Positions 21,177-25,008 of a stretch of DNA of 64,000 bases are shown in pieces (the stretch's first letter is position 1; the number at the start of each line of letters is the position of its first letter). Under the pieces are notes generated by a model that saw nothing but the letters and a program-made list of their open reading frames with translations, searched no databases and had not been told where the DNA came from. The position numbers and the translations under genes were made by a program. The stretch comes from Methylocella silvestris BL2 (lineage in GTDB: Bacteria > Pseudomonadota > Alphaproteobacteria > Rhizobiales > Beijerinckiaceae), in the NCBI RefSeq assembly GCF_000021745.1, contig NC_011666.1:3809001-3873000 (forward strand), given 5' to 3'.

Positions 21177-22579
21177 AACTTCCGCATGAACTCGGGCCGA
21201 TCCATTTCATCGGCATCGGCGGTATCGGCATGTCGGGCATCGCCGAGGTGCTGATCAATCTCGGCTATTCCGTGCAGGGCTCCGACGCCGCCGAGAACGC
21301 CAATGTGCTTCGTCTTCGCCGCAAGGGCGCGATCATCCATATTGGCCATCGCGCCGACAATCTTGGCGACGCCGAAGTCGTCGTGGTGTCGACGGCGATC
21401 AAGCGCAACAATCCCGAGCTCGCCTATGCGCGCGAATTGCGCCTGCCGGTCGTACGCCGCGCCGAAATGCTGGCCGAGCTGATGCGGCTGAAGCAATGCG
21501 TCGCCATCGCCGGCACGCATGGCAAGACCACGACCACATCGCTCGTCGCCACGCTGCTCGAAGCGGGCGGCTTCGACCCGACGGTGATCAATGGCGGCAT
21601 CATCAACGCCTATGGCACCAATTCCCGGTTAGGCGCCGGCGACTGGATGGTGGTCGAGGCCGACGAAAGCGACGGCACCTTCTTAAAACTGCCGGCTGAC
21701 GTCGCCATCATCACCAATATCGACCCTGAACATCTCGACCATTTCGGCACCTTCGAGAATATCCGCAAGGCGTTCCGCTCCTTCGTCGAAAACATCCCCT
21801 TTTATGGCTTCGCCGTCATGTGCCTCGATCATCCGACGGTGCAGGAGCTCGTCGGCCAGATCGAGGACCGGCGCGTCATCACCTATGGCGAGAATCCGCA
21901 CGCCGACGTGCGGCTCGTCGATATCGACCTTGCCGGCGGCATGTCGCGCTTTTCGGTGGTCGTGCGCGACCGCAAGAGCGGCGGCGAAACCGTGATTGAA
22001 AAAATCCTCATGCCGATGCCCGGCCTGCATAATGCGCTGAACGCCACGGCGGCCATCGCCGTCGCGCATCAGCTCGGCATGAGCCCCGACCAGATCCGGG
22101 GCGCGCTCGCGGGGTTTGGCGGCGTCAAGCGCCGCTTCACCCGCACCGGCGAATGGAACGGCGCCATCGTGTTCGACGATTACGCGCATCATCCGGTCGA
22201 GATCGCCGCTGTGCTCAAAGCCGCGCGCGCCTCGACCAAGGGCCGCGTCATCGCAATCGTGCAGCCGCATCGCTACACGCGCCTGCATTCGCTGTTCAAT
22301 GAATTCGCGGCCTGCTTCAACGACGCCGACGCGGTGATCGTCGCCGACGTCTATCCGGCGGGCGAGGCGCCGATCGAAGGCGCCGACCGCGACGGCCTCG
22401 TCGCTGCCATCAAGGCGCGCGGCCATCGCCTCGCCATGCCGCTGGCCCGTCCCGCCGATCTGTCGCGGCTGGTCCGCCAGCTGGCGCGGCCCGGCGATTA
22501 CATCGTGCTGCTCGGGGCCGGCAACATCACCCAATGGGCCTATGCCTTGCCGGGCGAACTCGCGGCGAGCGCGGCGTAA
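21173..22579 (+). CDS. murC: UDP-MurNAc:L-Ala ligase
   Basis: The 468-aa ligase starts the peptide stem by adding L-Ala to UDP-MurNAc. The nucleotide-binding start [20 protein letters not shown] loop [12 protein letters not shown] (about residues 110-120), [31 protein letters not shown], and [16 protein letters not shown] are all MurC signatures. The C-terminal domain includes [16 protein letters not shown] and [14 protein letters not shown]. Overlap of ATGA with murG; murB begins 40 bases after its stop. Confidence 0.97.
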
Positions 22580-22619
22580 GCCTTTGCGACCGCAGCCCGA
22601 CTTATTGGAGCCTCGCCCC

Positions 22620-23567
22620 TTGGCGTTTCCGGATTTGACGCCGGAGCTGCGGCGGGCGATGCCGGATCTGCGCGGCGCGATTAGCCCCAACGCGCCGCTG
22701 TCGGGACTGACCTTCTTTCGCACCGGCGGCCCGGCCCAAATTTTGTTCGAACCGGCCGATGAAGCCGATCTCGCCTATTTCCTGCAGCGCCTCGACCCAA
22801 ACCTCAATGTCATGACCCTTGGCGCGGGCTCGAATCTGCTTGTGCGCGACGGCGGGATCAAGGGCGTCGTCATCCGGCTCGGGCGCCCGTTCGAGGAAAT
22901 CGCGATCGAAGGTTTGCGCGTCACGGCAGGGGCCGCCGCGCGCGACATGAAGCTCGCCCTTGTCGCGGGCCGCGCAGGCGTCGCGGGACTTTCCTTTCTG
23001 CGCGGCGTACCGGGATCGATCGGCGGCGCGTTGCGCATGAACGCCGGCGCCTATGGGTCAGAGATCAAGGATCGCCTGATTTGCTGCCGCGTCGTCGACC
23101 GCGCCGGAAAAATCATCGAATTTGCCAACGCCGATATGGGCTTTTCCTATCGCCACAGCGCAATCGGCCCGGACGTCATTTTCACCGGCGCGACGTTTGA
23201 AGGCCTGCCCGGCGAGCCCGAAAAGCTGATGGCCGAGATGGCGGAGATCACTGCCGAGCGGGGCAAGACCCAGCCTGTGAACAGCCGCACCGGCGGCTCG
23301 ACCTTCAAGAATCCGCCGGGCCACAAAGCCTGGGCGCTGATCGACGCCGCCGGCTGCCGCGGCCTAACAATCGGCGACGCGCAAATCTCGCAGCTCCACT
23401 GCAATTTTCTGATCAATCAGGGGTCCGCTGCGGCGGCGGATCTTGAAGCCCTCGGCGAGGAGGTCCGCACCCGGGTCAAGGCGACAAGCGGCGTGTCGCT
23501 GGAATGGGAGATTTTGCGGGTGGGGGAGGGACCTCTCCGAATCCCTCATCCTGAGGAGGACGCGTAG
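22620..23567 (+). CDS. murB: UDP-N-acetylenolpyruvoylglucosamine reductase
   Basis: The 315-aa FAD enzyme makes UDP-MurNAc. Seen: FRTGGPAQILFEPAD, GAGSNLLVRDGGIKG, GVPGSIGGALRMNAGAYG, the catalytic Ser region SRTGGSTFKNPPGHKAW, and SGVSLEWEI with the catalytic Glu. I chose TTG 22620 (LAFPDLTPEL) because GGAG lies 9 bases upstream and homologues start MxFPDLTPEL; the open frame extends to 22542, overlapping murC, and ATG 22659 is a shorter option. The last nine residues, RIPHPEEDA, and the stop are encoded by a palindromic repeat, so the native C-terminus was rewritten by that element. Confidence 0.93.
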   Translation: MAFPDLTPELRRAMPDLRGAISPNAPLSGLTFFRTGGPAQILFEPADEADLAYFLQRLDPNLNVMTLGAGSNLLVRDGGIKGVVIRLGRPFEEIAIEGLRVTAGAAARDMKLALVAGRAGVAGLSFLRGVPGSIGGALRMNAGAYGSEIKDRLICCRVVDRAGKIIEFANADMGFSYRHSAIGPDVIFTGATFEGLPGEPEKLMAEMAEITAERGKTQPVNSRTGGSTFKNPPGHKAWALIDAAGCRGLTIGDAQISQLHCNFLINQGSAAAADLEALGEEVRTRVKATSGVSLEWEILRVGEGPLRIPHPEEDA

Positions 23568-23590
23568 CGTCCGTCTCGAAGGATGGGGAT
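23541..23590 (+). repeat. Palindromic repeat, left copy
   Basis: Outer arms ATCCCTCATCCTGAGGAG and CGTCTCGAAGGATGGGGAT flank an inner hairpin GGACGC-GTA-GCGTCC (23558-23572). CATCCT and AGGATG pair at the base. It encodes the murB C-terminus and contains the ATG of the following ORF. Confidence 0.85.
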
Positions 23591-23960
23591 TCCAGATGCA
23601 GGCGCCTCAATCTACATTCTGCGATGCGCGGACGGCGGCTATTACACTGGCGTCACGCGCCGTTCGGTCGCAGAGCGCGTGAGCGAGCATGCGCAGGGAT
23701 TGATCGACGACAGTTACACAAAAACCCGACTGCCAATCGAACTTGTCTTTGACGAATTTTATGAGCGAGCCGATGAAGCGGTCGCCGCTGAGCGCCGCAT
23801 CAGGGGGTGGTCGCGCGCCAAGAAGGAAGCATACATGCGGGGCGATTTTGCCGCTTTGTCCGCTTTGGCGCGGCGCAGGGGAAAGAGCGAACAGCCGACG
23901 AGCGATCCCCCGTCCTTCGAGACGCAGGCTTCGCCTGCTCCTCAGGATGAGGGATCTTGA
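23583..23960 (+). CDS. GIY-YIG domain nuclease within repeat unit
   Basis: The 125-aa protein has a single GIY-YIG domain: IYILRCADGGYYTGVTRR (residues 10-27, the IYI...YTG pair), an Arg and His in VAERVSEHAQGL, the YTKTRLPIELVFDEFY segment, and the catalytic Glu in AVAAERRIRGWSRAKKEAYM. This is the single-domain type related to UvrC/UPF0213 endonucleases. After about residue 107 the sequence (PPSFETQASPAPQDEGS) is just translation of the right-hand repeat. The only plausible start is ATG 23583, inside the left repeat. It sits in the dcw direction, so it is probably read through from murB. Function may be in repeat mobility; a DNA repair role is the alternative. Confidence 0.82.
   Translation: MGIPDAGASIYILRCADGGYYTGVTRRSVAERVSEHAQGLIDDSYTKTRLPIELVFDEFYERADEAVAAERRIRGWSRAKKEAYMRGDFAALSALARRRGKSEQPTSDPPSFETQASPAPQDEGS
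23905..23955 (-). repeat. Palindromic repeat, right copy (inverted)
   Basis: This is the reverse complement of the left copy: the arms match almost base for base (CTCATCCTGAGGAG and CGTCTCGAAGGA when read on the minus strand). The inner hairpin differs, GCAGGC-TTC-GCCTGC (23924-23938), yet remains perfectly paired, which is compensatory change. Confidence 0.85.
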
Positions 23961-23991
23961 ATCATTCCTCAATCCCGCTCCCTCTCAAAAC

Positions 23992-24035
23992 CCTCATCCT
24001 GAGCAGCGCTGAAGGCGCGGCTCCTCAGGACGAGG
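23992..24035. repeat. Third, divergent palindromic repeat before ddl
   Basis: CCTCATCCTGAG at 23992-24003 pairs with CTCAGGACGAGG at 24024-24035, with an inner imperfect GAGC...GCTC stem. It shares the CTCATCCTGAG arm with the two copies flanking the GIY-YIG gene but lacks the CTCGAAGGATG arm. It lies 49 bases before the ddl start. Confidence 0.7.
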
Positions 24036-24084
24036 ATTTCCTAAAACTCCGCAATGCCGCCTTCACCAAAAAACGGAAGTCCCA

Positions 24085-25008
24085 ATGAGCAAACATGTCG
24101 CCGTTCTGATGGGCGGACTCTCGGCTGAGCGCGAGGTTTCGCTGCGCTCGGGCGCCGCCTGCGCCAAGGCGCTCGAAGCGGAAGGATTTAGGGTCACGAC
24201 GCTCGACGTCGACCGCGACATCGCGCAAAAGCTCGCGGCGCTGCGGCCCGACGCCGCCCTCAATGCTTTGCACGGACGCTATGGCGAAGACGGCGTGATC
24301 CAGGGCGTGCTTGAAATGCTCGCCATTCCTTATACTCATTCCGGCGTGCTCGCCTCGGCGCTCGCCATGCAGAAGGATCGCGCCAAAGATGTTCTGCGCG
24401 CCGCCGGCGTGCCGGTGGCCGAGGGCGTCACCATCGGGCGCTTCGAGGCGGCCAAGGCGCATGTCATGACGCCGCCCTATGTGGTCAAGCCGCTCGGCGA
24501 GGGCTCGTCCTTCGGGGTCATCATCGTGCGCGCCGATCAGACGCATCCGCCGCAGGAGCTGACGCGCGACGACTGGGCCTATGGCGACCTCGTTCTGGTC
24601 GAACGCTTCGTCGCCGGACGCGAACTGACCTGCGCCGTCATCGGCGACAAGGCCTATGGCGTCACCGAAATCCGCGCCGCGGACGGCGGATGGTACGATT
24701 ATGACGCAAAATACAAGGCTGGCGGCTCGATCCACATCCTTCCGGCAAATCTTAAAGAATTTGTTTACCAAAATGTACAAGAGTTAGCTCTTGTGGCGCA
24801 CAGAGCGCTCGGCTGTCGCGGGGTAAGCCGGACTGACTTTCGCTACGACGATACGCCTCAAGGGACAGGCGAGCTCGTCGTGCTCGAAGTCAACAGCCAA
24901 CCCGGAATGACCGAGACGTCGCTGGTGCCAGAGATCGCGGCATATGCCGGCATATCTTTTGGTGAGCTTGTTCGATGGATGGTCGAAGACGCTTCCTGCG
25001 ATCGCTAA
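24085..25008 (+). CDS. ddl: D-alanine:D-alanine ligase
   Basis: The 307-aa ATP-grasp enzyme makes the D-Ala-D-Ala dipeptide used by MurF. Visible motifs: [19 protein letters not shown] (N-terminal substrate loop, residues 4-22), [60 protein letters not shown], and [16 protein letters not shown] with the Mg-binding Glu and Asn. Length is normal for DdlB-type enzymes. The start is ATG 24085; the repeat-rich segment upstream may mean it needs its own promoter. It overlaps ftsQ by 34 bases. Confidence 0.96.

Follow-up and report, generated by a model that had tools for sequence, protein, structure and literature searches.

A clade of GIY-YIG nuclease genes associated with a superfamily of inverted REP palindromes

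The closest described systems are those of RAYT/REP (TnpA-REP), REPtrons and REPINs, in which, as in the unit reported here, inverted palindromic repeats bracket the gene of a DNA-processing enzyme, many further copies lie without a gene and often as inverted pairs, and the repeat family tracks the enzyme (PMC3733652). The enzyme there is an HUH tyrosine transposase, whereas here it is a GIY-YIG protein; RAYT REPs carry a GTAG tag, whereas the repeats described here read TGAG...TCGAA, have a GA bulge and, by eye, lack GTAG. Inverted REP flanks are thus a RAYT/REPtron criterion that is met; an HUH/IS200/IS605-like transposase and a terminal GTAG tag are criteria that are not, and because both are absent we do not regard the unit as a member of that group.

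CGTC-tagged REPs, one of two large REP classes, had no association with a transposase gene in a 2013 survey (PMC3733652). They occur mainly in Alphaproteobacteria, often as inverted dimers (PMC3733652), and are defined by a terminal CGTC (or TGTC, CCTC) tag, an 8-9 bp stem, a 4-5 nt loop and a CCA-like tail (PMC3733652). The REP studied here differs in that its CGTC is internal and its stem longer and bulged; the criterion of a terminal CGTC is not met.

Among GIY-YIG enzymes, the Ssn nucleases of Neisseria and elsewhere are reported, in a 2025 paper, to cut single-stranded repeat sequences. The pairing of Ssn with the Neisseria NTS repeat is similar in that a small GIY-YIG enzyme is tied to an abundant genomic repeat, and differs from the clade described here in its repeat family. 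Given this paper, part of the nuclease-repeat principle may already be in print. A search of open-licence literature returned nothing on a GIY-YIG-REP pairing, which does not prove the pairing unpublished. The UPF0213 GIY-YIG proteins (PDB 1ywl, 1zg2) and Slx1 have their fold in common with our enzyme; to our knowledge, no repeat pairing has been described for either.

The REP-flanked unit between murB and ddl

The unit lies in a 64,000-nt stretch (the window) of the genome of Methylocella silvestris BL2, which comprises 4,305,430 bases in one contig; positions are those of the window (Table 1). The original prediction, made from sequence alone, was that two inverted palindromic repeats of about 50 bases bracket a 125-aa GIY-YIG ORF, which starts within the left repeat and whose C-terminal codons cross the right one. 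Both claims held: the arms are 48 nt long and inverted, with 319 nt between them, the ORF starts 6 nt within the left arm, and its final codons cross the right arm. The arms had also been called nearly identical; we measured 88% complementarity. Self-complementarity within each arm also gives a bulged hairpin, with folding energies of -29.4 and -26.8 kcal/mol under RNA parameters.

Table 1 Features of the unit and its borders, in window coordinates
Feature	Position	Strand	Remarks
murB	22542..23567	+	upstream neighbour of the GIY-YIG unit
Left REP	23541..23588	+	hairpin with 2-nt GA bulge, of the form CTCATCCTGAGGAG-hairpin-CGTCTCGAAGGATGGGG
GIY-YIG nuclease ORF, 125 aa	23583..23960	+	catalytic-type Y11, Y21, R32, H36 and E70 present
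Right REP	23908..23955	-	inverted copy of the left REP; codes C-terminal codons of the GIY-YIG ORF
Third REP-like hairpin, degenerate	23991..24036	.	outer edge next to ddl-side ATTTCCTAAA
ddl	24085..25008	+	downstream border of the site

The start of the ORF inside the left REP is possibly a derived accident, since the sister species (L012) uses a start whose counterpart here is the ATG at 23596, which is out of frame in the window because the window is one base shorter there. The last eight codons of murB (IPHPEEDA) and its stop also lie within the left REP, which is not so in the sister species. At 23532-23567, murB is without the sister's stop, and spacer and left REP supply its final 12 codons (GPLRIPHPEEDA) and its stop; murB of the sister species ends before the REP. 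The outer edge of the third REP adjoins the ddl-side sequence ATTTCCTAAA, and the ddl-side REP of the sister species abuts the same sequence. The surrounding cluster also includes murG, murC, ftsA and ftsZ.

The GIY-YIG gene is single-copy in this genome (search at E 0.01). The exact 14-mer CTCATCCTGAGGAG occurs ten times, two of these at the unit, and a looser REP unit pattern 16 times. An Rfam scan of 23400-24150 gave two matches, both under the gathering score. PADLOC and PHROGs returned no match for the unit, which therefore has no defence or phage label. Separately, an NCBIfam match to BrxC was dismissed as chance, being far under cut-off, and there was no other NCBIfam hit.

The only Pfam match of the ORF is GIY-YIG (PF01541, E 4e-11). 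The five residues that we take to be the GIY-YIG catalytic set (Y11, Y21, R32, H36 and E70) are invariant in 46 alignment rows, and the superfamily criterion, the fold with conserved Tyr, Tyr, Arg, His and Glu, is met. A predicted structure (mean pLDDT 78.6) resembles those of UPF0213 proteins and, to a lesser degree, Slx1. We conclude that the protein has the GIY-YIG fold and catalytic-type residues; by analogy, a kinship with the Ssn nucleases is probable. dN/dS was 0.016-0.30 in 12 of 14 gene pairs, the other two being saturated and yielding no value, and dS exceeded 1 in some pairs. The gene is under purifying selection.

A comparison of related genomes for empty murB-ddl sites had been proposed. 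Of 30 relatives searched, all have ddl; in the fetched stretches, a REP-gene-REP unit at this site was seen in two genomes only, that of the window and that of the sister species (G040). In the latter it occupies the same place in inverted orientation, with the gene opposite to murB and ddl; its 3' end is still the one next to the REP with hairpin CAGGCGAAGCCTG. No GIY-YIG gene lies between murB and ddl in the eight other same-genus genomes for which both genes were inside the fetched stretch (murB was outside it in five more). By eye, five of these eight sites hold a REP or part of one: a partial REP in L030 and L031, one REP in L032 and L034, and two in L035. No clear REP was visible at the gene-less sites of L033, L036 and L041. 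Methylocella silvestris TVC (L058) is a sister of the window genome.

In G040, the gene no longer encodes the second catalytic-type tyrosine. Because of this loss, and because the homologous start is out of frame in the window copy, the lineage of these two genes may be decaying, yet dN/dS between them is 0.095 (dS 1.5).

One REP superfamily is associated with the gene clade

From 201 relatives in a scan of named genomes, 80 loci were kept. In a motif-free test, inverted repeats between one flank and the other reached a score of 16 in 54 of the 80 loci, as against 0.37% of 7,900 control pairs drawn from the same loci. By eye, the repeats form one superfamily, CAT-nn-TGAG ... TCGAA-n'n'-ATG, between whose arms stands either an inserted hairpin (of the type GAG...CGTC or GTG/GCG...GCC) or a short loop, CTTG or CCTG. 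A strict motif placed a unit within 300 bp in 65/80 loci and on both sides in 43/80, and the variable dinucleotide stayed complementary in 189 of 206 such units. The density of strict-motif units, 6.9 per kb in the nearest 100 bp, was down to 0-0.06 per kb in the five bins that lie more than 400 bp from the gene.

The clade members examined next number 106: the 80 scan loci, that of the window and 25 further genes, without removal of redundancy between the 80 and the 25. L012-L027 are not among the 106, and L145 and L146 (cut contigs) and L142 (a duplicate of the window) were omitted from clade and flank counts. An earlier unit rule, which required a fully paired 5-bp stem, was satisfied at 62 of 105 clade genes; it was relaxed and re-controlled because it missed the common ...GGACG right arm. 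With the relaxed TGAG...TCGAA motif, a REP lies within 300 bp of 100/106 clade genes and on both sides of 76/106, compared with 3.3% (any unit) and 0.10% (two-sided) of 15,800 random places. Since the relaxed rule matches 3.3% of random places, a one-sided hit alone is weak evidence. The innermost pair is in +/- order in 52 of the 76 two-sided loci and in another order in 24. The original prediction was to be abandoned if homologues mostly lacked the repeats or if the repeats flanked random genes equally often. By these counts and the density given above, neither is the case.

Six clade genes have no relaxed-motif REP within 300 bp. On inspection, L114 has an imperfect REP, and the flanks of L149, L153, L154, L171 and L174 hold other or divergent inverted palindromes. 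In L153, L154, L171 and L174, a different inverted palindrome is found around CGTTCGT and TCGAGCGAAGTCGAG or TCGAGCTTGTCGAG; it is possibly a further REP family.

A phylum search of 249 genomes separated the clade, scoring above 90 bits, from other GIY-YIG genes, scoring below 75 bits. Of the other genes we use a partial set of 42, made up of L158-L167 and 32 of about the next 40. The TGAG...TCGAA REP is at none of these 42 more distant genes. We conclude that the association of these REPs with GIY-YIG genes is restricted to this clade, and that their orientation and paired arrangement are established as well.

Two other explanations bear on this association. One is chance or hitch-hiking, in which REPs gather in intergenic gaps and the gene merely sits in such gaps; REPs are indeed frequent in some of these genomes. 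However, within these very loci REP density drops at least 100-fold with distance from the gene, and the absence from the 42 other genes and the random-place and flank controls also contradict this explanation, which we consider all but excluded. The other is that the repeats merely serve the gene as terminators or autoregulatory hairpins. In its favour, the stop codon is not yet complete where the right REP starts in 46/90 loci, and the hairpins are strong. However, the two-sided REPs of most loci, and the many REPs far from the gene, speak against it, and we regard it as very unlikely.

REP type matches gene lineage. A protein tree of 81 tips requires 15 changes of REP subtype, as against a mean of 38 and a minimum of 31 in 200 shuffles; L132, L152 and L175 (stops) were left off the tree, and seven near-identical tips were also left off the shuffle test. 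Resolution of the tree is low, with 57 of its 99 inner branches open, and plain vertical descent could account for part of the match. In one genome, Dino_bin37, two paralogues have different REP types (L067 GAG, L095 GYG).

Across 99 genomes of the family, REPs occur in 14/15 gene-positive and 19/84 gene-negative genomes (P 2.6e-7, not corrected for kinship). The gene-positive exception, G013, has REP variants beside the gene that the pattern missed. As 19 of the gene-negative genomes carry the REP, the repeat needs no gene today. Units with GG stems outnumber those with CC stems in G035 (33 v 0) and G046 (119 v 22), and both genes are GG-flanked. The CC units are the more numerous in G000 (10 v 5), G040 (3 v 2) and G012 (34 v 22), where the genes are CC-flanked. 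CC units occur without GG units in nine of the 15 gene-positive genomes, and G013 has neither. Among these nine, the gene is flanked by GC stems in G041 and by CC and GC stems in G061 and G062; the stem type at the gene flank of G014, another of the nine, is not included.

Paired REPs and duplicated, relocated units

Among 102 pairs of neighbouring REPs less than 150 nt apart, sampled from ten relatives, 83 are in +/- order, 16 are -/+ and three are -/-; for several genomes the sample is partial. A first count, in three chosen genomes, had given 46/46 pairs as +/- (with 33 of 40 places covered for G041); a recount in eight genomes added -/+ pairs, and the 102 combine both counts with G041 taken once. 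The added -/+ pairs slightly weaken the evidence from orientation. Gaps within pairs peak genome by genome, near 17, 25, 32, 37 or 47 nt. The criterion for REPINs, dispersed inverted pairs with fixed short spacing, is met in the relatives; in the window genome, only two of eight other sites examined are paired. The window unit itself follows the prevalent +/- order and holds the gene between its two REPs. We also observed that all three neighbouring pairs counted for G062 are -/+, opposite to most relatives.

Whole units have been duplicated and relocated. In one Maricaulaceae genome, three units at unrelated sites (L075, L080 and L094) are 93-97% alike over 475-534 bp. Their likeness begins 21-39 nt outside the left REP. 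At the right it stops just past the REP or, where there is a second one, after that; no other long match was found among their surroundings. These three loci are a good place to seek recent transposition. From REP to REP, over 364-365 nt, L085 and L116 (one genome) are 78% alike, and L116 and L119 (two genomes) 82% alike. Two Cloacimonadota records share a run of genes but carry the unit in different gaps of it, A-unit-B-C versus A-B-unit-C (L104, L117), so that each record shows the other's place without a unit. A 20-nt sequence (17/20 alike) is found on both sides of the L117 unit (9761, 10438) and once in L104 (2064). It may be a target-site duplication or a re-made ribosome-binding site; the former is only suggestive, because a ribosome-binding site and a start codon fall within the 20 nt and because the L104 unit shows no such pair. 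An insertion between near-identical strains was not seen.

These sites also bear on a homing-endonuclease-like origin, in which the gene would insert into pre-existing REP sites that it cuts. The REP or part of one at five of the eight gene-less murB-ddl sites favours this explanation. However, a homed gene would halve one site, whereas here a whole REP lies on each side, usually inverted, and L104 has no REP at the place of the L117 unit. The criterion for a homing endonuclease, a gene that splits its target, often in an intron, is not met by an intergenic unit with intact REPs. We consider homing very unlikely.

A putative mechanism and the more distant GIY-YIG genes

The suggestion that this is a RAYT-like unit with a GIY-YIG enzyme in place of the transposase is supported by the data above, and we think it likely that we are dealing with an autonomous REPIN, its nuclease recognising the REP hairpin. 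Binding, cleavage, movement of the repeats, a single-stranded substrate and a role of the enzyme in dispersal are all inferred; no experiment has been done. The autonomous REPIN would consist of two REP hairpins in +/- order with the nuclease gene in the spacer, and REPs elsewhere in the genome would be its non-autonomous derivatives. When DNA becomes single-stranded in replication, repair or uptake, the REP would fold into a hairpin with its conserved GA bulge (TC-GA-A), and the small GIY-YIG enzyme would recognise its own REP type and nick at or near the hairpin. Repair of the nick or break may then copy a REP, a REPIN or the whole REP-gene-REP unit to another place, or may result in conversion between copies; repeat and gene would thereby persist together. 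With such a pairing of REP families and GIY-YIG enzymes, a candidate enzyme and a predicted target can be named for each family. REP biology would gain a new enzyme class, duplicated and inverted REP-gene-REP units would be explained, and many candidate sequence-specific nucleases would become available, with targets legible from their flanks. The spread or upkeep of these common, unexplained repeats may thus be the work of the GIY-YIG family.

Other inverted flank repeats were found at 13 of the 42 more distant GIY-YIG genes, compared with 0.16% of 2,520 controls; at the remaining 29, no inverted flank repeat reached a score of 16. By eye, 12 of the 13 are of the CGTC class, the tag being GTC (in the form CGTC or TGTC) or, in L194, its CCTC variant; CGTCATTCCCGCGAAAGCGGGAATCCAG in L205 is an example. 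Inverted CGTC-class REPs bracket L158, L176, L181, L187, L188 and L191, and also L194, L197, L198, L199, L203 and L205.

A rival reading is that of an Ssn-like guard: the nuclease would cut its REP in incoming or recombining single-stranded DNA and so tune uptake or recombination near REPs, while the spread of the repeats would have other causes and selection would retain them. The GIY-YIG fold, the purifying selection and the reported Ssn/NTS system of Neisseria favour it, as do the CGTC-class repeats at 12 of the 13 repeat-flanked distant genes, since the Neisseria dRS3 repeat is of the same class. A guard remains possible; a pure guard, however, leaves the duplicated and relocated REP-gene-REP units unexplained.

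The autonomous-REPIN reading can be extended to a bolder claim, which we put forward tentatively and, taken as a whole, are more inclined to doubt than to accept. GIY-YIG nucleases would be a second, independent class of REP-mobilising enzymes, each lineage driving its own REPIN family by nick-and-copy transposition (TGAG/TCGAA for this clade, CGTC-class for its distant kin), and would account for a large part of bacterial 'orphan' palindromic repeats. No bacterial transposase is known to us to transpose by such a nick-and-copy route.

Four genomes (G209, G246, G335 and G343) have one clade gene and one distant gene, each beside its own repeat class; the repeat of the clade gene is divergent in G246, and that of the distant gene lies 360-400 nt upstream in G335. 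We also note that G360, G297, G243 and G335 have five to eight GIY-YIG matches each, both clade and non-clade.
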